Shown here one piece after another: positions 1-20,127 of a stretch of DNA of 22,612 nt. How positions within the stretch are numbered: the stretch's first letter is position 1; each line of letters opens with the position of its first letter. The position numbers and the translations under genes are program-made. This DNA is from a virus. Below the pieces are notes generated by a model. It made no database searches. It saw only the letters and a program-made list of their open reading frames with translations, and had not been told where the DNA came from. The stretch spans positions 1 to 22,612 of the IMG/VR virus record IMGVR_UViG_3300001450_000351; one strand, written 5' to 3'.

Positions 1-884
1 CCTGCGAAATCGGATGCTAGTTTACTTGGGGCGACTCCTAATTCTTCAGCAAACTTTTCAAGATTCAGCATTTGTTGTCCAGCGGCATCGACGCTCATTC
101 CCATTGCTTTTGTCAAAGTTTGAATGCTGGTCGCGAAATCTTGGTTTGAAACTCCTAATTTTTCTAAAACTGTTGCGGTGTTTGTTAAGCTTTCTCTGGT
201 TTTAGCATCTTGAAAAGTAAAATCAGTGAACCCGGTATATAATGATTGCATTGATTTATTAACATCGTCAACGGACCCTCCAAATTTACGAGTTTCTCCA
301 TACGAATTTGATACACTGCGCGCAAATTCCCGGTTAGCGCCAGTAACTTTCATAAAGGCGTTTTCGGCGTTACCTATTTGTATAGCGAGCTTTAACATTT
401 CTGCGGCAAGCAGTACAATCGCTAGGGCTGCTGCAGGGCCGGCAGCGGCTTTTAATCCTTTGCCAAAAGTGTCTGCGGATTGAAATGCAGATTTCATATT
501 CTTTGTTAATTTCTTCTCTATTGCACTTCCTAAAGAATTAAGACCTTTTGATGCCTGTCCAGAAGCATCTCCGGAAAAAATGCCTTTTAGAACGTCAGGT
601 GCGTTGTCGGCAAGCTTGTTAAGGTCTTTTTGGGCTTTTATAACTTTATTATAATATTTTTCGGCGGCTTCAAGTTCTTGTTTTTTCAGCTTTAGTGTGT
701 TCTCGGTAGTGTCGTTCTGGGCCTCCGCAGCATCGAAGAGGGACTGCTGAAGATCTAGATTTTCTTTTGCATTTTGAACAGCTACAGCATTAAGAACATT
801 GGATTTCTCTTTTTCCTTGTTTTGTGCTTTTAAAGCTGCCGTAATGGCATCCACCAGCGCTGGATCTAATTCTTCACCGTTCAT
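1..884 (-). CDS. Tail tape measure protein, N-terminal part (cut by window edge)
   Basis: An uninterrupted frame of 294 codons runs from ATG at 884 off the left edge. A GAGGG ribosome binding site lies 7 nt before the ATG. The first ~110 residues are charged and rich in heptad-like Lys/Glu/Leu/Gln (coiled coil). An Ala-rich hydrophobic stretch follows (AGPAAALAIVLLAAEML, about residues 145-165), then an Ala/Ser/Phe-rich helical region with phrases such as KVTGANREFARSVS and VLEKLGVSNQDFATSI, typical of phage tape measures. These proteins set tail length and are packed in the tail lumen. Its place after the tube gene and the tail-assembly pair is the usual one. It sits directly behind a terminator and an ACTATTTA motif, so it probably starts its own transcript. 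Full length and any C-terminal enzymatic domain lie outside the window. Confidence 0.88.
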   Translation of the reverse strand, partial: MNGEELDPALVDAITAALKAQNKEKEKSNVLNAVAVQNAKENLDLQQSLFDAAEAQNDTTENTLKLKKQELEAAEKYYNKVIKAQKDLNKLADNAPDVLKGIFSGDASGQASKGLNSLGSAIEKKLTKNMKSAFQSADTFGKGLKAAAGPAAALAIVLLAAEMLKLAIQIGNAENAFMKVTGANREFARSVSNSYGETRKFGGSVDDVNKSMQSLYTGFTDFTFQDAKTRESLTNTATVLEKLGVSNQDFATSIQTLTKAMGMSVDAAGQQMLNLEKFAEELGVAPSKLASDFA

Positions 885-946: not shown

Positions 947-1195
947 CTACCCTATCTTCGGTTGATTGAATTTGTTTAAAGTTTGGCTTTTCTTGCCGCC
1001 TTTCGACGATTCTTCTATTGCCTTCTTTTCGTCTTCAAGTTGCTTCACTAATCTCTCAACAAACCATTTTCTTAAACCTACAGGAAGATTATACGCTTCC
1101 GTTAGACTCCACCCGCCTGAATATTGCAAAAAGAAAAATTGTTCATAAACATTTTGCATATACTCATCGGTCAGGCCAAAAAAAGTCCGCACCAA
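947..1195 (-). CDS. Small tail-assembly partner protein (gp51-like or frameshift C-terminus)
   Basis: This frame overlaps the end of the gp26-like gene and stays open to a stop at 947. The conserved-looking part is an aromatic helical domain (DEYMQNVYEQFFFLQYSGGW, then EAYNLPVGLRKWFVERL) with a Lys-rich tail. Short proteins of this type follow gp26-like genes in T4-related phages. Two expression routes fit. One is independent initiation at TTG 1195 or GTG 1192, 6 or 9 nt after a GGAGG at 1206-1202 inside the upstream gene. The other is a +1 or -2 ribosomal frameshift on the T7 run at 1184-1178, giving a fused protein of about 356-357 residues. The first ATG in this frame (at 1153) lies too far inside the domain to be attractive. 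Its place between tube and tape measure is where tail assembly chaperones usually lie. The start is uncertain. Confidence 0.65.
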   Translation of the reverse strand: MVRTFFGLTDEYMQNVYEQFFFLQYSGGWSLTEAYNLPVGLRKWFVERLVKQLEDEKKAIEESSKGGKKSQTLNKFNQPKIG

Positions 1196-2018
1196 GCGGA
1201 ACCTCCATTGGCTCCTCAAAGCCGCAAGAACTGCACTCAAAATCTTGTGTTAAGTCGATATTTGGATTAACAAGTTTATATGCCAATCTTAAATGACGTG
1301 AATCCTTCGATGGAAGGTTTTGTGCAACATACCTTCTAGTCTCAATTCTATCGTCACCGTTGGCTGCAACCAGCATGGTCATTAGCTGGCGGGTGACTGC
1401 CTTTTCCCCGGCTTTACTTTTCTTATCCTGCTCTAGATTGCTTAGATAAGTTTTTTCGTCACGACCGGTTAGAAGCCTAAACGTTGCCATTATCTTTGTC
1501 GCCGGAAGTTCTACATCAAAGGTACTATCTTCATTTCTGGCAATATCAATTGCTGATGTATCCTCTCCACTATAAACATTGCTTTCTTCTAAATCAAAAG
1601 CAAATTCAACTTTAGTTTGGCATGCCGGACAAACAACCTTTGTTTCATATCGACTACCGTAACTGGCTGCTCGCAATGCAATAACAATTGCATTTCTGTC
1701 TCCAACCAAAAGGGAATTAGGATCAATTGATTTATCGACAATAACATTTGCAATAACCCTATCGATAGCAATACCTTTCTTTAAAAGAACCTTCGAAGTT
1801 AAGATATCCTCTTCTTTTGCCGTCATGTGCTTTATTTCTAACACATCCTTATTATACAAAGGGTGATTTGCAGGATAATATGCGCCCTTTGATGGTAAAT
1901 CTACAAAGTCAGTAGGCACGACAAAAGAAAATGCCCCTGCTTGTTGCGTTGGACTCGATGGTGGCATAGCATTCGATTGTCTATGCCCGCCCATACGGTC
2001 ACTATTTTTTCTACTCAA
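1164..2018 (-). CDS. gp26-like baseplate hub / tail assembly protein with zinc ribbon
   Basis: This 284-aa protein resembles the T4 base plate protein family (gp26-like). The N-terminal ~30 residues are polar and look disordered. The motif FVDLPSKGAYYPANHPLY (38-55) and a following helical region (MTAKEEDILTS) are the family signature I recognise. Two CxxC knuckles, C130/C133 and C262/C265, are placed to form a zinc ribbon whose halves are about 130 residues apart. The start is TTG at 2018, supported by a GAGG 6 nt upstream; the next ATG (1994) has no good ribosome binding site. The gene lies 17 nt after the tube gene and overlaps the next gene in another frame near its 3' end. By position and family it acts in hub or tail-tube assembly, perhaps as a chaperone rather than a virion part; that last point is inference. 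Confidence 0.7.
   Translation of the reverse strand: MSRKNSDRMGGHRQSNAMPPSSPTQQAGAFSFVVPTDFVDLPSKGAYYPANHPLYNKDVLEIKHMTAKEEDILTSKVLLKKGIAIDRVIANVIVDKSIDPNSLLVGDRNAIVIALRAASYGSRYETKVVCPACQTKVEFAFDLEESNVYSGEDTSAIDIARNEDSTFDVELPATKIMATFRLLTGRDEKTYLSNLEQDKKSKAGEKAVTRQLMTMLVAANGDDRIETRRYVAQNLPSKDSRHLRLAYKLVNPNIDLTQDFECSSCGFEEPMEVPLGADFFWPDR
1178..1184 (-). other. Run of seven T: candidate +1/-2 frameshift site
   Basis: In the gp26-like frame the coding strand reads GAC TTT TTT TGG CCT GAC CGA TGA. The downstream partner is in the +1 (equivalently -2) frame: ACT TTT TTT GGC CTG. Skipping one T, or re-reading two, at this homopolymer joins residue F280 to the partner domain four codons before the TGA stop. 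The run also simply encodes Phe-Phe-Trp, so it may be fixed by protein sequence rather than by frameshifting. Confidence 0.4.
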
Positions 2019-2035: not shown

Positions 2036-2623
2036 TTAACTTGTGGCTTTATAGCTGACTTCGCTGCCCATTCCTTCATTGTAGGTAGCCCAATCATATC
2101 TGATAGTCATGCTATATTCGGTCAAATCCTCTGAACCATAATCTAGAGTTCCAAAATTAACTTCGCTAATGAAAGAGTTGTTTAACGTCCAAGATTCCTG
2201 AACATTTCCTTCATCATCCAATTGCTGACAAAGCACCTCGCCCAATCCACCAACCGCTTTTGTTTTAGAGATTGTCTGGAATTGAGAAGCATCAGTTGGC
2301 ACCACATATCCACTTTCATTCAGAATTTTCGTTAATGCGAAAGCGACACCTTTCTCTCCGCCGGGATCAACCATGGTGATGCTGATATCATTCCAAGTTA
2401 CTCTGCCGGGGAATTTAAACGTATGGTTTAAATAATTATGAGTTGTCTCACCTAGAGTATAAGTAGGCTTATCAGCAGTCTTAGCCCAGAAAACAACGTT
2501 TGTGCCCAAATCCGAACCAATCGCAGTATCACTGAAAGCGCCAACAGTTATCTTAAACCTAAATGCTCTTTTAGGGTTTGTGACCCCCGAGCCATTGTAA
2601 TCTGTAGTCCAAAAAGTGGCCAT
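2036..2623 (-). CDS. gp19: Tail tube protein (T4 gp19-like)
   Basis: This 195-aa protein is slightly longer than T4 gp19 (163 aa). It shows the tube-protein pattern: N-terminal FRFKITVG strand, KPTYTLGETTHNYLNHTFKF (the segment matching the tube family's lipid/hub-facing loop), WNDISITMVDPGG, and a C-terminal TEYSMTIRYDWATY strand. Tube subunits stack as hexameric rings inside the sheath and conduct DNA. The ATG at 2623 is preceded by AGGAG with a 10-nt spacer. It follows the sheath gene directly, as gp18-gp19 do in T4. A variant of the recurring motif, ACTATATA, lies 25 nt upstream of the ATG, so this gene may also have its own late start. Confidence 0.9.
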   Translation of the reverse strand: MATFWTTDYNGSGVTNPKRAFRFKITVGAFSDTAIGSDLGTNVVFWAKTADKPTYTLGETTHNYLNHTFKFPGRVTWNDISITMVDPGGEKGVAFALTKILNESGYVVPTDASQFQTISKTKAVGGLGEVLCQQLDDEGNVQESWTLNNSFISEVNFGTLDYGSEDLTEYSMTIRYDWATYNEGMGSEVSYKATS

Positions 2624-2670: not shown

Positions 2671-5600
2671 TTAATCATCGAAAGAAGCCCCACTTGATGC
2701 AATAACAAAGTCAATTGCGATATATTCAATGGCTCTTGCTGGTTTAACCATAATTTTAGCGTAGAGAATATTTTGATCAATTAGATCTGGGGTAGTGGTT
2801 GTGGAGTCCAAGATTAATTTGTAATCTGTGATACCAAGTCTTGTCTGAACACTCGCAAGAAGCGGTCTAATAAGTGCTCTAAAATTGTTCCAAGTCGCTT
2901 CAACATTTTGCTCAAACAGAACCTGTGTAGAGAGGATAGAAATCTGCTTCTTCAAGAAGATAACAAGCCTTCTGACATTAATTCTGTCAAGTGCTGATGG
3001 ACGCTCCTGCAAAGTCTTCTGTCCGAAGACAACAATTCCTTCAGATGGGAACGAGGCGATTGGGTTGATGCGAGCCTCATAAAGAGTGTCACGATCCTTA
3101 GAGCTTAAGCGTTCACTAACCTGTGTAATTGGAATTCCAGCAGCGCCGTCTGTCAAACCACCTCTGTTAAAGCCGGCTGGAGCAAACCAAATTTCGGAGG
3201 TACGCTCTGAGGATGCCAAAACACCCATCATGGCAACTGTTGGTGGAATCCAGACTAACTGACTGGTATTCGCATCGACCGTCTTAACCCATGGGTAGAA
3301 TGTTGCACCGTAACTGGAGTCAACTCTACGCAGCTTAAGAGCATTTGCCGCTGCAATTGGAGTTGTTCCAATTCTACTAGTTTTGTCAGCATAATATTGT
3401 TCGTGAGAAGGTCTATAAACATCCGGAAGATCAATTAATGCCAGAGCATCTGCTCTTTCTGCGCAGGTTTCAATCATGAGAGAAGTTAATGCCGTATTCG
3501 TCAAGCCAGGAATGGATAACAAGTTCATATTAATATATTCCGGATCCGAAACAGTTTGAATCGCCCTTGTATATGTGTGGAAAGCGTAACTATCATCTTC
3601 TGTGCTAGTGGAGGTCATGACTCCGTTATATAGCGGATCTGGTTTTGTTATATCAAATCCATCGAATCCACCCCAGAATGGAGCAGTAAACTTATTGATA
3701 TCTGCGTCGAGAAGTGCAGTATAGCCGCTGACTGCGGAAACACTTTCATTTGAAGTTCTAGAGGCAGAGAGATAAGTATAAGTGCTGCCGGTAATGGTCA
3801 AATTATCCATCGTGAATATGTAAGAATAGCCACTTATTCCTGTAATCGCTGTTGATGTTGGATCAGATGGCACGTTGTTTGTGTTGCCCAATCCTGCATA
3901 AAGCAATCTGTGTGTATCAAATATTCCAGCTTGTGGGGTGGTAGCGGTTGTTTGCCTAGTTGTATCGATACCAAAGTATGCTTTAGTCTGGTCGGACATA
4001 ACATTATCGGTTCCCTTATAGCGCAATCTAGCCGATGGGAAATTAATTGAGCAAGACAATGATATACCGTATGACGAGGATATTAACAAAGTGTGCCCAA
4101 CTGCACCGTGGCCATCACCGGCCATGGCACTTCCTGTCCCCGGCATGGCGGAACCGGTTCCAACTCTAAGAAATGATGCGGAGACAGCCATTTCAAATTT
4201 ATTCGGCTGGCTGGCTGGACCCGTTTCGTATATTTCGATGTCTTTAAACTTTGGAGGACCATAATATCCGAATGGTAAGAGGACTGGGTCTGTTGCGCCG
4301 GCTTCGACATCTGCATTCATATCAATTCTGATATATTTAGAACGATTATCATAATCTCCGTATTCCTTCAATGCCTTCTTTGTGGTATCCCATTCTTGAT
4401 ATTTGTCGCCAATTAATTTTGCAACATAATTTGGCGATGATGGATCCAAGTTACAATTATCAAATCTTTCCAATACTTCTACAGCCGAATCAGTGTCTGT
4501 AATTTTACGAATAATAACCGAGAAGGAACCATATTCGTTTGTAGTTGTAGTTGTTTGCTTAATATTAGCGATAGACACTTTGGCATTTTTATGTAACCAA
4601 GAGCCATGTCCCCGACCAATCAATCTAAATAATTTTTTAGTGGTAGAATAGGGATTAAAACTGTTACTTGAACCAAGATCTTGGCCAATAAACCATCCCG
4701 CGATTGCCTCTTGAGAAGGTGTCGATTTCATATTGTGTGGGCCGAGAGTGGTTGCAGATCCGCTAGCGATGGGGAGCATAAAGCCAACAAGCCTGCCGGA
4801 AGTTAATACAGCATCACGAGCTTCTTGCTCAAAAGTCTCTCCAAGCCAATAATCCTCATATGAGTCTGATGGGAAAAAACTACCTTGTGGAGAAATCAAT
4901 TGTGGGTTCGTATTAAGAACCTTTCTTATATAATATTCATCAGAATCTTCATCCATGCCAATTAAAAATTTCTTTTCGCCATTGACAGCACCACTTATAA
5001 GGATCGCAAATCTTCCACTGGTATCGCTCTCAACAAGAACAGAGGTGCCTTTTACTTGGTCGCCCGTGCCGAACGAGAGCGTTCGGCTCCCCGCTAAAGA
5101 GCCAGAAAGTCCCGCAGAACCAGAGCCAACATATATAATAGCTGCTAATTGAGCAGCGCCAGTGCGATCAAGCTCATGCGCAGGCCCCGCAGGAAGGCGG
5201 GTTCCAGCAACGAGGTTTCCGCTAGAAGAGGATTTCGCAATCCAAAGGCCAAATGCGCCACCAGCAGTTACGCCGCGAACTGGATTAGTAGCAGTACCAG
5301 TACTGGTCACAGATCTCCAGCCTGCTGCTGCAGCACCACCTGCCGCAGAGCCAACAGAGGTTTGCTGCCCTAAAAGACGGATATACGTCAATGGCGCGAC
5401 ATTTGATCTCAGGAACGCCTTGGATGCGTAAGTTCCATACATTGGAGACTGATAATTGCCCTCGCGATAGATATCTCCGCCACCGTTTCCGGGCACAGTA
5501 TCACCAAACATTTCTACAAACTCTGAATAAGATTGCACATTTATCGGCTGCATTGCTAGCCCGCGTGTGGCGCGGCCAATGACGACAGGCCCGATAGTAT

Positions 5601-5682
5601 CGGCTTGACGCGGGAGGAAGGAATTATCGATTTCATTAACGAAAACTCCAGGGGAAACAAATTTGAAATCACTGACTGACAT
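2671..5682 (-). CDS. gp18: Contractile tail sheath protein (T4 gp18-like), unusually long
   Basis: The N-terminus (FVSPGVFVNEID at 8-19, then GPVVIGRATRG and FVEMFGDT) and the C-terminal ~150 residues (INVRRLVIFLKKQI, FEQNVEATWNNFRALI, and a final strand in IEYIAIDFVI) are the conserved polymerising domains of contractile sheaths. The product is 1003 aa against 659 for T4 gp18. The extra length lies in the middle (about residues 110-780), rich in Gly/Ser/Thr/Ala and probably β-structured surface domains. The ATG at 5682 follows AAGGAG. Its 5' space holds an ACTATTTA motif 49 nt upstream, a 10-bp palindrome TTGTATACAA (5696-5705) next to the ribosome binding site and a small hairpin (5703-5716). 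It precedes the tube gene, as in T4. The fold and role are well supported; the function of the insert is unknown. Confidence 0.93.
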   Translation of the reverse strand: MSVSDFKFVSPGVFVNEIDNSFLPRQADTIGPVVIGRATRGLAMQPINVQSYSEFVEMFGDTVPGNGGGDIYREGNYQSPMYGTYASKAFLRSNVAPLTYIRLLGQQTSVGSAAGGAAAAGWRSVTSTGTATNPVRGVTAGGAFGLWIAKSSSSGNLVAGTRLPAGPAHELDRTGAAQLAAIIYVGSGSAGLSGSLAGSRTLSFGTGDQVKGTSVLVESDTSGRFAILISGAVNGEKKFLIGMDEDSDEYYIRKVLNTNPQLISPQGSFFPSDSYEDYWLGETFEQEARDAVLTSGRLVGFMLPIASGSATTLGPHNMKSTPSQEAIAGWFIGQDLGSSNSFNPYSTTKKLFRLIGRGHGSWLHKNAKVSIANIKQTTTTTNEYGSFSVIIRKITDTDSAVEVLERFDNCNLDPSSPNYVAKLIGDKYQEWDTTKKALKEYGDYDNRSKYIRIDMNADVEAGATDPVLLPFGYYGPPKFKDIEIYETGPASQPNKFEMAVSASFLRVGTGSAMPGTGSAMAGDGHGAVGHTLLISSSYGISLSCSINFPSARLRYKGTDNVMSDQTKAYFGIDTTRQTTATTPQAGIFDTHRLLYAGLGNTNNVPSDPTSTAITGISGYSYIFTMDNLTITGSTYTYLSASRTSNESVSAVSGYTALLDADINKFTAPFWGGFDGFDITKPDPLYNGVMTSTSTEDDSYAFHTYTRAIQTVSDPEYINMNLLSIPGLTNTALTSLMIETCAERADALALIDLPDVYRPSHEQYYADKTSRIGTTPIAAANALKLRRVDSSYGATFYPWVKTVDANTSQLVWIPPTVAMMGVLASSERTSEIWFAPAGFNRGGLTDGAAGIPITQVSERLSSKDRDTLYEARINPIASFPSEGIVVFGQKTLQERPSALDRINVRRLVIFLKKQISILSTQVLFEQNVEATWNNFRALIRPLLASVQTRLGITDYKLILDSTTTTPDLIDQNILYAKIMVKPARAIEYIAIDFVIASSGASFDD

Positions 5683-9972: not shown

Positions 9973-11859
9973 TTAGGAAGAGTACTCTTCACCAAGCAGC
10001 CCGCGAACAATGACAAGGCCATACATATCTGGACGAACCATCTTCTTGGCATAGCGAGTCATCACGCCCTTGCGAGGCACGAAGTCTTCAGGTCCAAAGA
10101 TGGTTGGAGTCGTCTGGAGTGGGACGTATGGAGCATAGACATAGCCAGACTCAAGGAAAGAATTTCCTCTACGACCAACAAGAATGACGTTGCGCAAGAA
10201 GTATGGATCGACGATAACGTCGAACTTCTTGGAAAGCGCACCAATCTTAACAGCACCGACAGTGCCAGTCTCAGAGTCTGCAGTAACGCTAGCGCGGAAA
10301 CCAGCAGTGAACTCAAGGATGTTGGCAACTTCAGGAGAGCAAACTAAGAAGTTTGCGCCACCGCGAAGGGTCTTCCGGTGAATCTGAGCGGAAACATCGT
10401 TGACTGTCTCAACAAGAGTCTCATACCACTCAGAAACAGTACCAGTGAAGTCTGGCGCAGCCTGCTCAGCACCAAGCTCAACGCCGGTAGTCCGATTCAC
10501 GAAAAGTCCAGGTGAACGTGACCAGTAGTAAGTTGCGGCTTTAGCACCACTAACAAGGTCGGCAATGATCTCGCGATCAATCTCAAGAGCAATTTGCTCA
10601 GAGAGAATGCCTGTCAACTCGACCTCTGCATCAAGGTTGTGGTAAGCGTTAAGATCTTGTCCTAACTCTGGAGTCCACTTAGCCTTGAGCTTTTTGGTCT
10701 GAGCGGTAACAGCAATGCTGTCCACCTTGATGTCGATCTCTGGAATGTGCTCATTACCTTCAAGGCCCCATGTTGCAGCACCGACGACAGCACCGGTTGC
10801 TCCACCAGCGTCAAAATTGTCGCGAAGTGGGAACTGAGCGGTTCCAGCATCCAACGTCACACCGAGTGCAACAGGTGTTGTGGATTCGGTAAGCTGTGCT
10901 GGCTCATCGATGACGATGAAGAAGCGAACAGCTTCAGCTTGACTAGTCAAACCGGACTGATATGGTGCGCCACGAGTATCGCTAGAAACCAATCGTGTCA
11001 AGCGACGAACTTGACGCATGTTGGAGATAGCGGTGATGGTACCAATACCGGATGCATTATTCAGTTCGCCGCGAAGTCCGATTGTATCAGCCTGATCCAT
11101 GATGTCCTGAAGAACAAAAGCAGCCATATTATCATAGTCAGCTTCAGCAAAACATGTAGCCGTTTTAATGTCAAGAACAATAAGGCCATGAACGGTCAGA
11201 TCCAACAAGTCAGGATCGTAGTCAATGAGTGATTTCTGATCGTTGGTCATGTTAGCGCCACCGTCAAGCTTAACCAAAGCAGAAACAGCAGCATTGGCAA
11301 GACCGGTGGTCGCCTGAGCCATGGAGCCTGTTGGAGATGCATATGCATAACCACGAGCACCAGCGGTACGAGGACCACCAAAGTCCTCTGCGAAAGTACC
11401 GACCAGATCGACACCAGCAGTCACTTCGCTAGCAACTTCATCAGTACCATAAATGGACTTAGAATTTGGATTACCCATTCGGTTAGTCATGGAACCAGCG
11501 CCGGTTGCGCCAAGATCTGGTGAGTACACGAAATCAAGGAAGAAAATGAGGCCGGATGGCAAACTCATTGGTTGGACGCTAACAAGATCATTAGCGATAA
11601 GGCCGGCGAAAACACGACGGACAATTGGGAAAGCAACACTTGCGAAACCTTCAACGTCACCAGCGCTCATGCTGGAAGACTCACGGAGAAGTTCTTTAGC
11701 TTGATTCTCCAAAAGGCGCGCCATGGTGTTGCGCTTGCGGTCATCAGTAAGACCTTCGAGAAGACCGGTACGCTGCCACTTGTTAAGAAGTGCGGTTCCT
11801 TCGGCCTTCATATCACGCTTAATTACCCCTTCGGATAACCTTTCAATTATACTAGACAT
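9973..11859 (-). CDS. gp23: Major capsid protein precursor (T4 gp23-like)
   Basis: This 628-aa product is longer than T4 gp23 (521). Residues 74-110 (SVAFPIVRRVFAGLIANDLV, then VQPMSLPSGLIFFLDFVY) match the start of mature gp23 (VMGMVRRAIPNLIAFDI, VQPMNSPTGQVFALRAVYG). The C-terminal part has the expected VIVDPYFLRNVILVGRRG block. The N-terminal ~60 residues are helical and charged and end in ELLRE (E60), matching the LxE/IxE cleavage rule of gp21-type proteases, so a removable propeptide is likely. The ATG at 11859 has an ideal AGGAGG with 7-nt spacing. Codon use appears more GC-rich and regular than the neighbours, as for a very abundant protein. The scaffold gene precedes it by 21 nt and a strong terminator follows. 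Confidence 0.93.
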   Translation of the reverse strand: MSSIIERLSEGVIKRDMKAEGTALLNKWQRTGLLEGLTDDRKRNTMARLLENQAKELLRESSSMSAGDVEGFASVAFPIVRRVFAGLIANDLVSVQPMSLPSGLIFFLDFVYSPDLGATGAGSMTNRMGNPNSKSIYGTDEVASEVTAGVDLVGTFAEDFGGPRTAGARGYAYASPTGSMAQATTGLANAAVSALVKLDGGANMTNDQKSLIDYDPDLLDLTVHGLIVLDIKTATCFAEADYDNMAAFVLQDIMDQADTIGLRGELNNASGIGTITAISNMRQVRRLTRLVSSDTRGAPYQSGLTSQAEAVRFFIVIDEPAQLTESTTPVALGVTLDAGTAQFPLRDNFDAGGATGAVVGAATWGLEGNEHIPEIDIKVDSIAVTAQTKKLKAKWTPELGQDLNAYHNLDAEVELTGILSEQIALEIDREIIADLVSGAKAATYYWSRSPGLFVNRTTGVELGAEQAAPDFTGTVSEWYETLVETVNDVSAQIHRKTLRGGANFLVCSPEVANILEFTAGFRASVTADSETGTVGAVKIGALSKKFDVIVDPYFLRNVILVGRRGNSFLESGYVYAPYVPLQTTPTIFGPEDFVPRKGVMTRYAKKMVRPDMYGLVIVRGLLGEEYSS

Positions 11860-14256: not shown

Positions 14257-15096
14257 TTATTTAATCCTCGCTCTAAATATACCAGCAAATGTGCATGCAT
14301 CACCCCCGGTAGCGAAATTTCCGGCAGCAAGAAAGACATACAATTTGTGATTTAGCGGTATTGCATCTTTAGTATTTTTACTCTTCTCCTGAAGATTTTC
14401 ACCGCCGCAATCTGTACCGGGAGTGTTCGACAGAGACGCTGCATAATAATAGTGTACGTCTGGGATTCCTTCATTGTCGAAGATGAGAGAATTTGCAATT
14501 ATTTTATTTCGAAAACCACGACATCCATCGTCAGTTCCGCGATTTGCATTTGTACTAGCAAAGCCCAAATTTGTATTTCCATGTTCTAGATCAGTCTCCA
14601 CTGATTCGTTCGAACCATTACCCATTTTCCAGGCTAGCCCAGTATTTACCACATCACTAGAGTCGCGGCCGCTCTTACCATACATCATTGGGGCTGAGCC
14701 GGCAGCCGCCCAACACCAACCAAAAACAACAAGCGGCCCACCGGAATTTGTCGCAGTTACCAGATCGGATTCTAAAGCGCCAGAACAATCCATATCTAGG
14801 GCAATGCTTGGCGCGTGATAGCCTTTAAATCCTGTATCCCAAAATAAATAATTTGCGCACTCATCTATCGAGGTAGTAGCTGTTGATGTTGATGCACCGA
14901 TGGTTATTTTAATATATTGATTACCTGAGCCATCGGTCGATGCACTTTGCGCAAAACTTACTGTAGCATCATCAGCGACACCACCCGAAAGATACATAGC
15001 ATTGTCAACATTCAATATAAGAGGTTCTGATTCTGCCCTTAAATAAGCAACACCTTCTGTATAATATAATTCTGAGCCTTGTTTATTATTAATCAT
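14257..15096 (-). CDS. Putative fibre-tip or decoration protein, paralogue of next-downstream gene
   Basis: This 279-aa β-rich protein has several Cys residues (for example C80, C104) and a Tyr-rich late segment (PDVHYYYAASLS). It shares the FWDTG motif and the C-terminal ending with the 289-aa gene that follows, so the pair arose by duplication and diverged strongly. It begins at ATG 15096, overlapping the fibre stop as TAATG, with AGGGA upstream, so translation is coupled to the 1088-aa fibre. A trimeric distal knob or lectin-like binding domain would fit, but no known lectin signature is visible. Confidence 0.75.
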   Translation of the reverse strand: MINNKQGSELYYTEGVAYLRAESEPLILNVDNAMYLSGGVADDATVSFAQSASTDGSGNQYIKITIGASTSTATTSIDECANYLFWDTGFKGYHAPSIALDMDCSGALESDLVTATNSGGPLVVFGWCWAAAGSAPMMYGKSGRDSSDVVNTGLAWKMGNGSNESVETDLEHGNTNLGFASTNANRGTDDGCRGFRNKIIANSLIFDNEGIPDVHYYYAASLSNTPGTDCGGENLQEKSKNTKDAIPLNHKLYVFLAAGNFATGGDACTFAGIFRARIK

Positions 15097-18000
15097 TAGC
15101 TAGTCCCTATAATAAACCAATTAATCCCATTGCTTACACAGGTTACAGAGCCTGAATTGGAAGTTATCTTCACTAAGCTTGCACCATCGATAGTCTCATT
15201 CGCTGAACCGGAAATTACTAAGTTAAATGATGACGCTGAGCCACTGACATCTTTAAAAATATAAGACTTTCCAGCGCCGGCAGCGGCTGCTAGGGGCAGC
15301 GTTCCAGTTATAACGGCACCGGTCAAGTCACAGAAGAGCAAATATTCATTGTTGGCGGCTGTGAAGTTTGCAGTCTTGACCGATGTTGCTAGCGAGATCC
15401 CGCCGGCGATATTAATGCCAGCAGATGCTGTCAATTGACCAGAGAAAGTATTTACGCCACTAAACGTATTATTATCGCCGGTAATGTCGCCACCACCAGA
15501 TGATGCAGTGAGCACTAATTTGCCATCTGAGTTCATGCCCACATAGCTGCCAGGACCACCTATTGCGCCACTAGCAATCGTGACCGGATCAAACAGTATG
15601 CCACTACCTGAAATTTCGATGCCGCCTTGTGAGCCTGAGATTATTAAAGTATTTCGACCGTTTTCGTCGTATTCTATAGAGGAGTCAGATCCATTGCCAA
15701 AAACAATCTTTCTATCGTCATATAGATGAATATTGCCGTTTGGAACATTCAGCGTACCATTAGCCACAGTGACAGAAACCGAGCCATCAGCGGCATCACC
15801 TTGAAGGGTAAATGCTTCTGTTGCTGTTCCATCATATTCGGCAATTGTAAATTTAATTCTTCCCCGTTCTCCACCAGAGGTTGATTTTTTAATTTCGCCA
15901 TCAATCTGGCCATATACTGTTGCATTGCCAGCAGCATCATGAGAAGAAAACACAATACGACCAATAGTATCATCTTCCGTTGGCGACGAACTAGTTTTAT
16001 TAAATATTAATTGACCGGGATGTTGATCAGCGTTTTCGTTCTGAATATATATTCTGGGACGAGTTGACTGTGCTGTTTTAAAAATCACATTATCACTCAA
16101 CACCGCAATTCCGGAAATAGAGCCAGAGATTATTAGTTGATTATCTCCATCTTCATCATACTCTATGTGAGCATCTGAATCTGTACCAAAGAACAGCTTC
16201 TCATCGTCGATAACGGTTAGATCGCCGCTACTGTCGTTAAAGGTTAATGAGGCTACACCACCGAAGGCTCCGCCATTATTGTATTGTATCTGTGTATCAG
16301 ATCCCCCGGGGGTACCTCCTCCCGAAGATGCGGTCAAAACTAACTTGCCGTCTGAATTAATGCCAACATAACTGCCGGGGCCACCAATCGACCCACTAGC
16401 AACTGTGGCCGGATCAAAGAGTACAGAGCTTCCTGATATCTCGATACCGCCTTGGGAGCCAGAGATTATCAGGGTGTTTCTTCCGTCTTCATCATATTCG
16501 ATGCTAGAGTCTGAGTTGGTACCAAAGATGAGTTTCTTATTATCAATAACTGTTAAGTGGCCGCCACTGTCATCAAAAGTAAGACTAGCGACACCACCAA
16601 AAGCGCCACCATTATTATATTGCACTTGAGTGTCAGAACCACCGGGCGTTCCGCCTCCCGAAGAAGCAGTCAAAACTAACTTACCGTTTGTATTGATCCC
16701 TAGATAGCTGCCTGGACCTCCAATGGCACCACTGACAACTGTTCCCGGGTCGAAAAGAACGCCACTGCCAGATATTTCAACTCCCCCTTGAGAGCCAGAT
16801 ATAATCAGTGTGCTTCTTCCGTTCCCATCGTATTCTATAGAGGCATCAGAAGCATTACCGAAGATAACCTTTCTATCATCATGTAAGTGGATATCGCCAT
16901 TTGGAAGGTTTAACGTACCATTAGCCACAGTAACAGAAACCGTTCCATCAGCACTATCGCCTTGAAGTGTCAGTGCTTCTGTTAATGTGCCATCGTACTC
17001 AGCAACTTCAAATTTTATTCTTCCTCTTTCTCCACCGGATCCAGACTTTTTGATATCGCCCGAAAACCGTGCATAGGTTGTTGGGTTTCCGGCGGCATCA
17101 TATGACAAGAATTCCACTCGACCGATCATGTCGTCTTCTGCAGGAGAAGAACTGGTTTTGTGAAATATTAGCTTTCCTGGCTGATCATCTATATTTTCAT
17201 TTTGAATTACTATTCTAGGTTTCCCCGAAGTCGTAGATATAACTGTAAAATCGGTGCCATCAAAAGTTAAATTGGACTCTCCGGTGATCGTACTGCTATT
17301 AACAGCGGTCAATATTCTATTATCAGCAACATTACTATAAGTTGTAATAGGGGACATGCCCGTTAATTTAGCACCATCGCCGAAAAAAGCAGCACCAGAG
17401 ATATTTAATGAGCTAGAAAAATGATTAGAGGCAAAAACACCGGCTGTAGTGCCATTCGCCACTAGTGTTACGGTGTCACCAGAAATTGTGATTGGAGAAC
17501 CGCCAGAAATTCTACTAGCAGTTAATTCTGTAAATATTGCTGTGGAGCCAGTTATACCCAATGAAGCAGATATTTGTCCTATTACTTTAACTATACTTGG
17601 ACCGTTCAGCCATTGCAAATTGCTGCTAGCACTGATTGAACCAGCGCTATTGAATTGAATATTACTGTCGGATCCCGCTGCTTTTATATTTGTCAATCCT
17701 GTGCCGGCACCATAAAAAGCAGCACCAGAGATATTTAATGAACTAGAAACGTGCGTGGCATTAATGACGGTATTATAAGTATTTAAAGAAGAGCCTGTGA
17801 CGCCTTGTGAACCCGATATTTCCCCTACAACCGTTAAGGTCATCGTTGGATTCGAAACCCCAACACCCAATTTTGAGGCATAAATGAAGCTTGCACCCGG
17901 TGTACTGCTTACTGAGGCACTAAAAACTGTTGTAGCGGTTGCTGCGCCATCTGCGCTAGCTGAAGCAACAATAAAACTTCCTGTACGAACGTGTTGATCA

Positions 18001-18362
18001 TCGTTACTATCACCAAAATCAGTAGAACCACTAGAATAGATCCTTTGAATTGTGCTAACGGTATAACTACTAGCAGAAATATTGCCAGATACAACCAGCG
18101 TACCGGTTAATGTTAAAGTGGATTGGTCGGAATTAAATGTAAAGTTATCCGAACCAGATATATCGCCGGAAACCGGAGTGTTTCTTCTAAATTGTATGGA
18201 AAATTCCGGCCCTTCTGCTATGATTGCCGCGCTAGCGGTGATATTTGTAAGACCCGATCCGTCACCATGAAATTCCGAAGCGGAAACAAAACTCGAAGCA
18301 GAGATGGAATTAACCGCCACCACACCTTCAGTATTAACAAATGTCCAGTTAAAATTAGCCAT
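15096..18362 (-). CDS. Large modular fibre protein (tail or head fibre)
   Basis: This 1088-aa Gly/Ser/Thr/Ile-rich protein is built from repeats. The fibre motif FxGDGxGLTNI occurs at 31-41 and in variants at 216-226 and 326-336. The phrase GGSDTQVQYNNGGAFGG, common in phage and prophage fibres, occurs at about 574 and 686. An IEYD module recurs at 509, 621 and 733 with an exact 112-residue period, and again at 896. A 190-residue block (381-570) is repeated without gaps at 768-957. The C-terminal ~90 residues (EYLLFCDLTG, LPLAAAAGAGKSYIFKDVSG, GINWFIIGTS) resemble the closing domain of many phage fibres. The ATG at 18362 follows AAAGGA. It probably forms trimeric fibres; whether they attach to tail or capsid is not shown. 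Its location inside the head gene block leaves a head fibre possible. Confidence 0.85.
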   Translation of the reverse strand: MANFNWTFVNTEGVVAVNSISASSFVSASEFHGDGSGLTNITASAAIIAEGPEFSIQFRRNTPVSGDISGSDNFTFNSDQSTLTLTGTLVVSGNISASSYTVSTIQRIYSSGSTDFGDSNDDQHVRTGSFIVASASADGAATATTVFSASVSSTPGASFIYASKLGVGVSNPTMTLTVVGEISGSQGVTGSSLNTYNTVINATHVSSSLNISGAAFYGAGTGLTNIKAAGSDSNIQFNSAGSISASSNLQWLNGPSIVKVIGQISASLGITGSTAIFTELTASRISGGSPITISGDTVTLVANGTTAGVFASNHFSSSLNISGAAFFGDGAKLTGMSPITTYSNVADNRILTAVNSSTITGESNLTFDGTDFTVISTTSGKPRIVIQNENIDDQPGKLIFHKTSSSPAEDDMIGRVEFLSYDAAGNPTTYARFSGDIKKSGSGGERGRIKFEVAEYDGTLTEALTLQGDSADGTVSVTVANGTLNLPNGDIHLHDDRKVIFGNASDASIEYDGNGRSTLIISGSQGGVEISGSGVLFDPGTVVSGAIGGPGSYLGINTNGKLVLTASSGGGTPGGSDTQVQYNNGGAFGGVASLTFDDSGGHLTVIDNKKLIFGTNSDSSIEYDEDGRNTLIISGSQGGIEISGSSVLFDPATVASGSIGGPGSYVGINSDGKLVLTASSGGGTPGGSDTQIQYNNGGAFGGVASLTFNDSSGDLTVIDDEKLFFGTDSDAHIEYDEDGDNQLIISGSISGIAVLSDNVIFKTAQSTRPRIYIQNENADQHPGQLIFNKTSSSPTEDDTIGRIVFSSHDAAGNATVYGQIDGEIKKSTSGGERGRIKFTIAEYDGTATEAFTLQGDAADGSVSVTVANGTLNVPNGNIHLYDDRKIVFGNGSDSSIEYDENGRNTLIISGSQGGIEISGSGILFDPVTIASGAIGGPGSYVGMNSDGKLVLTASSGGGDITGDNNTFSGVNTFSGQLTASAGINIAGGISLATSVKTANFTAANNEYLLFCDLTGAVITGTLPLAAAAGAGKSYIFKDVSGSASSFNLVISGSANETIDGASLVKITSNSGSVTCVSNGINWFIIGTS
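15492..17222 (-). repeat. Internal duplications of fibre gene (190-aa block twice; 112-aa period)
   Basis: Codons 381-570 (17222-16653) and 768-957 (16061-15492) encode collinear 190-residue copies offset by exactly 387 residues; by hand count about 145 of 190 residues are identical. Between them a 112-residue unit repeats in tandem (IEYD at 509, 621, 733). Corresponding DNA differs at many third codon positions, so the copies are old or have been kept by selection rather than newly made. Confidence 0.88.
17384..17741 (-). repeat. 28-bp identical direct repeat in fibre gene
   Basis: The 28 bases at 17384-17411 recur exactly at 17714-17741 and encode part of SSLNISGAAF just before the GxGxGLTN motif. 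Such islands of identity in diverged modules are typical points of recombination between fibre genes. Confidence 0.8.
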
Positions 18363-19110: not shown

Positions 19111-19532
19111 TTCATTGCCTTCCAAATATGTGATGCGTTTCCTAATATCGAATTAATATCCACGCCTGAATCTCTAGGATCACCTAAATCTACCGCTCCG
19201 GCGGCTGATGGCGATTGTGATTTCACAGGGTCAATATTTTCAAATATATCAACTCCGCCATAGGCATCTTTGCCGATAGAGTCCATTAAACGCTTGCGGT
19301 GTTCGCTTAATTTTTTGCGTGTATCACTAGACTTTCTTTTCATATTGTGATTCTCGTCTACAATATGCTCTTGTTTCGATTGAGTTTGTCTAGTCTCGGT
19401 CACAAGATTTCCTTGCATACCGGCTGCTACCTCTGATACGATGTTTGTAAGAAGACCCTCTTCGAGAATCATCTCTTTAACGCACTCTTTAATAAGAGGC
19501 TTCAACATTCTTTTTAAATCATTTTTCTTCAT
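19107..19532 (-). CDS. 141-aa prohead-block protein, unknown
   Basis: The product starts with a short amphipathic helix, MKKNDLKRMLKPLIKECVKE followed by MILEEG, then a polar Gln/Glu/Lys-rich region, a basic patch (HNMKRKSSDTRKKLSEHRKR) and a Gly/Ser/Asp tail. It begins inside the end of the protease gene (GAGG 6 nt before ATG 19532) and ends overlapping the bS21 start. In T4 small core proteins gp67 and gp68 flank the protease gene; this could be an analogue, but no sequence match is claimed. The N-terminal helix resembles that of the 127-aa gene upstream of the protease, which may mark proteins taken into the prohead. Confidence 0.72.
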   Translation of the reverse strand: MKKNDLKRMLKPLIKECVKEMILEEGLLTNIVSEVAAGMQGNLVTETRQTQSKQEHIVDENHNMKRKSSDTRKKLSEHRKRLMDSIGKDAYGGVDIFENIDPVKSQSPSAAGAVDLGDPRDSGVDINSILGNASHIWKAMK

Positions 19533-20127
19533 CTAAAACCTCATTCAACAGACGATTAACTCTATCCGCTTTTGTAAAAACTTTATTATTATAATCTTTG
19601 GCTTCCTTCATCATGAAGGCACCCGGTGTCGATGGCTCTGAAACGAAGTCAAAGCAAATCAACTGAAAATCATCTTCAACTACAGTTTGCCCATTTGATT
19701 CGTTGACAGAACCCATACCCCGAGAAGATATCCCAAGAGTAACACCACTGTCAACTAAAGAACGAAGAATCTTGCCAGACGGAGTATCAAGGACTTGCGC
19801 CTTGCCCATAACACTATTGCCATCCCACCACACCTCAGTAATCATATGAGAAGCGTTCTTTAAATTAATAACTGAATCATCTGGATGATCCAACTCGCCT
19901 AAAGCGCGCTTTTCTTTAACTAATTTCTGATAGTTCTTCATTTCCCTTTCGAGAATAGGATGCGGATAAACCCTTCCATTACCGTTCTGTGTATCGGACT
20001 TCTGCATGCAGCCAGAAAGGATCATTCCACCCTCTTTGATAAACCGCTTCTCGTCTTCTGTCAGCAGATCTTTACAGACACCGCCTTCACATAACGCATA
20101 AAATTCTCTTAATAGTTTTTTACTCAT
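19519..20127 (-). CDS. gp21: Prohead maturation protease (T4 gp21-like)
   Basis: This is a 202-aa serine protease of the phage prohead type (herpesvirus-protease-like fold). Visible signatures are NGNGRVYPHPIL (48-59), GELDHP with likely catalytic His81, GISSRGMGSV with the nucleophile at Ser134 or Ser135, and FDFVSEPSTPGAFM (159-172). T4 gp21 (212 aa) has the same order and length. The enzyme sits in the prohead core, becomes active after shell assembly, and cuts scaffold, core proteins and the capsid propeptide after LxE/IxE sites; candidates are present in the gp23-like (E60) and neighbouring proteins. The ATG at 20127 has TGAGGA upstream. It overlaps the start of the 141-aa gene by 14 nt. 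Confidence 0.9.
   Translation of the reverse strand: MSKKLLREFYALCEGGVCKDLLTEDEKRFIKEGGMILSGCMQKSDTQNGNGRVYPHPILEREMKNYQKLVKEKRALGELDHPDDSVINLKNASHMITEVWWDGNSVMGKAQVLDTPSGKILRSLVDSGVTLGISSRGMGSVNESNGQTVVEDDFQLICFDFVSEPSTPGAFMMKEAKDYNNKVFTKADRVNRLLNEVLDEEK

Follow-up and report, generated by a model that had tools for sequence, protein, structure and literature searches.

A putative programmed +1 ribosomal frameshift, preceded by a predicted hairpin and a GGAGG element, in probable tail chaperone genes of the phage gp26 family

Tailed phages use −1, −2 or +1 shifts of the reading frame for their tail chaperone pairs (PMC5009743). In the lambda G/GT system (Xu, Hendrix and Duda 2004, as cited in PMC5009743) a −1 shift between overlapping ORFs gives a short form and a frameshifted long form, encoded between the tube and tape measure genes. 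T4 is given as an exception to G-T frameshifting (PMC5009743): its gp26 and gp51 are one short and one long form, and the long form gp51 is a separate full-length gene. Separate short and long genes are also reported for some T4-like phages (Vladimirov, Gautam and Davidson 2022, as relayed in PMC10885494 (PRFect) and PMC12846349), and in what these two later papers say of T4-like chaperone genes, the signals in some of them are poly-T −1 signals, not +1. For +1 shifting the closest comparisons lie elsewhere. At the RF2 (prfB) site CUU_UGA_C a P-site YUU slips to UUU with a stop codon in the A site, and a Shine-Dalgarno duplex forms upstream with 3-nt spacing. An upstream hairpin adjoining the E site stimulates +1 shifting on 70S ribosomes in vitro (Huang, Cho and Chang 2018, PMC6321510), the hairpins in question being designed, with 12-bp stems, to mimic an internal Shine-Dalgarno duplex (PMC6321510). 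Influenza PA-X, in a eukaryotic host, involves a +1 shift within the UUU_CGU of UCC_UUU_CGU (PMC3498833), a case in which any chaperone or hairpin parallel is absent.

We analysed a candidate frameshift in a window of 22,612 nt, the whole stretch of DNA taken from the phage virus record IMGVR_UViG_3300001450_000351. The genes of the window lie on the minus strand, and those that define the locus are as follows.

19519–20127, minus strand: maturation protease
9973–11859, minus strand: major head protein
2671–5682, minus strand: tail sheath
2036–2623, minus strand: tail tube gene (phrog_4542, E 1.6e-20), upstream of gene A
1164–2018, minus strand: gene A, gp26-like, putative short chaperone (284 aa, TTG start, TGA stop)
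947–1177, minus strand: partner B as read after the shift, a predicted 76-aa three-helix domain GLTDEYMQNVYEQFFFLQYSGGWSLTEAYNLPVGLRKWF... (stop codon 949–947)
3–884, minus strand: tape-measure-like ORF (PF20155, E 8e-5, under the curated cut-off), downstream of A/B and leaving the window

The order of tube, A/B and tape-measure-like ORF is the one in which chaperone pairs of the lambda G/GT kind are placed, and the flanking genes at 2623–2036 and 884–3 bear out the position between tube and tape measure that an earlier note had proposed from the sequence. The tail sheath is unusually long (1003 aa), with its sheath-family matches in approximately the C-terminal half, and a 1088-aa ORF at 15096–18362, among the head genes, is without a PHROG match at E 0.001. 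Shine-Dalgarno sites precede most genes of this phage. Searches of the window for tRNAs and Rfam families found none.

Gene A belongs to the T4 gp26 family rather than to that of lambda G. It scores 60.9 bits against PF12322 (T4_baseplate), for which the cut-off is 24.5, and matches phrog_150 with E 2.5e-18, so that it shares both its Pfam and its PHROG family with T4 gp26/gp51. Cysteines 130/133 and 262/265 are nearly invariant. A and B were folded separately, and the fold predicted for gene A is confident (pLDDT 87.5). A PDB search with it put the HK97 tail assembly chaperone 2ob9 first, at a level below significance (E 0.69, probability 0.57). Among predicted viral structures it matches the SP-15 hub subunit (E 3.4e-18) and Aeromonas phage 25 gp26 (E 9e-7), and those matching it well are named baseplate hub or gp26. 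The product of A and B is likely a tail assembly chaperone.

The features of the junction are given below in the order in which a ribosome would meet them. The 3' region of gene A reads GGAGG-T-TCCGC-TTGGT-GCGGA-C-TTT-TTT-TGG-CCT-GAC-CGA-TGA, its last codons from GAC TTT TTT TGG CCT GAC CGA to the TGA.

1202–1206, minus strand: Shine-Dalgarno-like GGAGG, internal to gene A
1186–1200, minus strand: predicted RNA hairpin TCCGC-TTGGT-GCGGA, stem 1200–1196 with 1190–1186, ending 1 nt before the slip codons
1176–1184, minus strand: candidate +1 slip site TTT_TTT_TGG, with E-site TTT 1184–1182, P-site TTT 1181–1179 and A-site TGG 1178–1176
1164–1166, minus strand: zero-frame stop codon TGA of gene A, 18 nt past the first slip base

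The T7 run (1184–1178), the TGA (1166–1164) and the partner ORF (1240–947), whose +1 frame stays open past the stop of gene A, all lie exactly where the earlier note had put them. Its other coordinates, those of the GGAGG and of the partner-frame TTG 1195 and GTG 1192 included, are likewise correct, and its estimate of a fusion of 356–357 aa agrees with the 356 aa obtained by a +1 shift, with the junction after F280. The fusion was built by reading TGGC as one step, which gives a protein identical to that of a +1 slip on the T-run.

The partner would add a compact domain. Its predicted fold (pLDDT 86) comprises helices at residues 4–21, 25–30 and 33–60, and a PDB fold search with it gave no useful match. 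B is 57–97 aa long among 115 complete relatives, with the consensus GLxxxYxExVYEQFFxLKYxGGWSFxEAYNLPVGLRxWF, and its conservation begins at the Gly-Leu immediately past the slip. A match to DUF6760 (PF20546) is sub-threshold (E 0.045), and when the fused A-B protein is aligned to phrog_150 the alignment reaches only position 235–244 of 282. The C-terminal extension of T4 gp51, itself a gp26-family protein, resembles B by eye; comparison of the two by hhalign, MAFFT and profile search reached no significance. Profile matches of B include Mel-JY01 (E 3.9e-21) and immuto (E 1.7e-14).

Relatives were collected in two rounds. A protein scan of viral contigs gave 80 loci, of which one exits its contig and 79 are readable; in all 79 the partner is in the +1 frame and open across the stop. 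A second, profile-based scan together with a genome scan added 86 further loci with a scorable partner, Bacteroidota MAG contigs included, and again the partner is +1 in 86 of 86. Pooling the readable junctions (n = 156) and reducing them below 80% amino acid identity left 122 representatives, on which the counts below are based unless the first scan is named. All scorable relatives have B overlapping gene A in the +1 frame, as opposed to T4 with its separate long gene, an arrangement found in none of them. Likewise, a search of more than 150 loci for relatives with two separate genes, a normal start codon and no homopolymer, which would have spoken against a frameshift, found none. By this comparison the +1 arrangement at A/B is far above chance. 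Some relatives of the chaperone gene sit on contigs that were binned with Flavobacteriales, Winogradskyella, Saprospiraceae and Sphingobacteriales. This hints that part of the family infects Bacteroidota, although the phage of the window carries Shine-Dalgarno sites ahead of most genes. Named phages also carry the open +1 junction.

Microcystis phage Mel-JY01: open +1 junction
Flavobacterium phage immuto: open +1 junction, AGC TTT CTT TGG
Bacillus phage SP-15: open +1 junction, TTT TTT CAC
Streptococcus phage GXN1: open +1 junction, TTC TTT CGT
Listeria phage LIS04: open +1 junction
Huge phage LR756508: open +1 junction, TTT CTA

The annotated records of these named relatives mark the joined A-B product in no case; in public records B is either a separate hypothetical protein or missed. 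In the Mel-JY01 record the B domain has its own entry, a hypothetical protein that overlaps the gp26-like gene and is probably the frameshifted extension.

The slip motif is constant while the codons around it vary. It is TTT TTT TGG in 106 representatives, TTC TTT TGG in 12, TTT CTT TGG in 3 and TTT TTT TTC in 1, so that YTT_TGG is kept in 121 of 122 and a P-site TTT_T or CTT_T in all of them; a C follows the TGG in 112 of the 121. Elsewhere in gene A an in-frame TTYTTTTGG is absent from every representative. The zero-frame stop falls 15–18 nt past the slip start in 118 of 122. The earlier note had proposed looking at third codon positions in an alignment. In the first scan the second Phe codon is TTT in 54 of 54 representatives (78% TTT elsewhere in gene A), and the Pro codon after the slip is CCT in 52 of 53 (31% elsewhere in the gene). 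The fixed third bases of CCT and GAC are the second bases of conserved +1-frame codons, for Leu and Thr. Because these bases are frozen exactly at those positions, the +1 frame appears to be translated from the slip onward.

The site resembles that of RF2 in its P-site codon and its upstream Shine-Dalgarno-like element, most closely in the three representatives with CUU_UGG_C, and differs in having a sense codon in the A site (UGG in 121 of 122, TTC in one). The GXN1 junction TTC_TTT_CGT in turn recalls the PA-X site. Taken together, the comparison strongly supports the programmed frameshift that the earlier note had suspected between the gp26-like protein and its partner, and we consider it very probable that a programmed +1 ribosomal frameshift yields a tail assembly chaperone in a short and a long form.

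Two elements upstream of the slip codons are conserved across the family. The GGAGG at 1206–1202, which the earlier note had picked out, is real and recurs: a match of at least 6 nt to the anti-Shine-Dalgarno complement lies at −26 to −14 in 90 of 122 representatives, as against approximately 1% of background windows, and the Glu codon within it is GAG in 49 of 50 (34% elsewhere). Its distance to the P-site codon is approximately 20 nt. Where RF2 forms its duplex, with 3-nt spacing to the slip codon, there is instead a predicted hairpin, directly 3' of the GGAGG and ending 1–3 nt before the slip codons across the family; like the stems of Huang, Cho and Chang it directly adjoins the slip codons on their 5' side, though these natural stems are short, mostly 4–8 bp. 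A stem of at least 4 bp is present in 91 of 122 representatives, compared with 6–35 at eight control offsets, the nearest control being the highest. The 27 nt that precede the slip fold with a mean energy of −6.2 kcal/mol, compared with −1.6 to −2.5 for five control positions. Downstream of the slip, the pseudoknot-free folding profile showed no outstanding stimulatory structure.

RNAalifold over −45 to +60 returned no consensus structure, because the stem register differs between lineages, and fixed-register pair counts for covariation were not significant for the hairpin. We therefore turned to per-sequence randomisations with control windows. Synonymous randomisation gave p ≤ 0.05 in 59 of 122 representatives (5–8 in control windows), and dinucleotide shuffling of the last 18 nt singled out 53 of 122 (3–11 in controls). 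The stem of the window itself reaches only p = 0.12–0.16 under synonymous randomisation, so the argument for the hairpin comes from the family and not from the window sequence. Stem sequences vary by lineage (CCGC/GCGG, CCGT/ACGG, GGCGTT/AACGCC, GTGCC/GGCAC, GAGGTA/TACCTC and TGCAGT/ACTGCA), and by inspection the distant huge phage LR756508 has CGCATC/GATGCG. Should the frameshift be real and the hairpin and GGAGG mere by-products of local codon choice, with no role in it, the non-significant fixed-register covariation and the 31 of 122 representatives that have no stem of at least 4 bp would be readily accommodated. This reading must also account for an excess that appears only here in both randomisations and in the stem counts with their controls, and for stems that differ in sequence between lineages; we judge it the less likely account, though one with some weight. 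In terms of sequence, hairpin and GGAGG are conserved beyond coding need, and the hairpin is a probable stimulator of the +1 shift.

The GGAGG also bears on whether B could be made as a separate protein, either from an internal start (TTG 1195 or GTG 1192) or by re-initiation at ATG 1159, which we consider improbable. Although the GGAGG is well placed for TTG 1195 and GTG 1192, the internal initiation offered in the earlier note as a competing explanation fails on both codons, which are not conserved, and on the 23 of 122 representatives that have no +1-frame ATG, GTG or TTG from the upstream stop to the domain core (34 nt past the slip start). Since no common start codon lies in the required stretch, none could make B in these 23, where ordinary internal initiation is ruled out; on this ground it was rejected. 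As in pairs of the lambda G/GT kind, B lacks a conserved start codon. The earlier note saw no good ATG for the partner; one is present in frame at 1159–1157. An ATG at this place, slip+25 and directly past the stop of gene A, occurs in 53 of 122 representatives, and these phages could therefore also make some B on its own; in the window it has no Shine-Dalgarno site, unlike most genes there, the conservation of B starts upstream of it at the Gly-Leu, and across the family the slip+25 codon drifts like that of an ordinary residue (ATG, ATA, ATT, ATC, CAA, AAC, GCT and others). In 27 of 122 representatives the +1 frame is closed by a stop no more than 15 nt 5' of the slip, which leaves little space for entering it in any other way. 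It is more likely, from these patterns, that the GGAGG acts with the hairpin in frameshifting than that it serves as an initiation site.

The earlier note had left the direction of the shift as +1 or −2, and of these +1 is supported. A −2 shift, as in phage Mu, would enter the same frame with one extra Phe, and the T7 run of the window would permit re-pairing after it; in the 12 TTC TTT TGG and 3 TTT CTT TGG representatives, where TTC or CTT interrupts the T-run, the P-site tRNA would be mispaired after −2 whereas +1 keeps its pairing, and −2 was rejected as very improbable. Finally, RNA polymerase and some sequencers can slip on a T7 run, but that the apparent shift is transcriptional slippage or an assembly error is scarcely credible and was rejected, given 15 of 122 representatives with TTCTTTT or TTTCTTT in place of the run and the identical +1 offset in more than 150 concordant contigs and several finished phage genomes.

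For the programmed +1 shift we infer the following course, slip and rate included. Most ribosomes would terminate at the TGA (1166–1164), giving the 284-aa gp26-like short form. A minority would pause when UUU (1181–1179) occupies the P site and UGG, the only Trp codon, the A site; the Phe-tRNA would move one base forward onto UUU (1180–1178) and reading would resume at GGC CUG, yielding a 356-aa long form with the added three-helix domain. The hairpin, refolding right behind the E site and aided by the GGAGG further upstream, may promote this slip, in a role comparable to that of the Shine-Dalgarno duplex in RF2. The short form would be the majority and the long form the minority product, as in lambda G/GT, and, by that analogy only, the tape-measure protein would be coated by the short form, and tube subunits would be recruited through the domain that the long form adds.

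The direction of the shift may not be the same throughout the family. In the jumbo phages 121Q, Atu_ph07 and PA5oct the corresponding Phe-Phe codons lie within T_TTT_TTC, and the open partner is in the −1 frame. The gp26 family thus seems to use both directions; the records of these three phages carry no joined annotation. Slightly favoured, in our view, is a natural +1 signal in which a hairpin refolding behind the E site replaces the RF2-type Shine-Dalgarno duplex, with the GGAGG at its foot as a second element and the stem sequence free to change; as distant jumbo phages of the family appear to use −1 on T_TTT_TTC, the direction of the shift would have switched while the logic of short and long forms was kept.

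Chaperone frameshifts are known, including −1 shifts in T4-like phages, and the +1 site with its hairpin would be a new variant, though Vladimirov et al. 2022 may already note +1 cases. The upstream hairpin offers a natural test case for an effect that we found described only with designed constructs, and its many natural stem variants form a ready-made compensatory series. For the family itself, a large unannotated set of gp26-family chaperones, mostly metagenomic, keeps the putative +1 frameshift, while T4 has long been listed as the exception; the conserved +1 set suggests that the separate gp51 of T4 may have replaced an ancestral frameshift.
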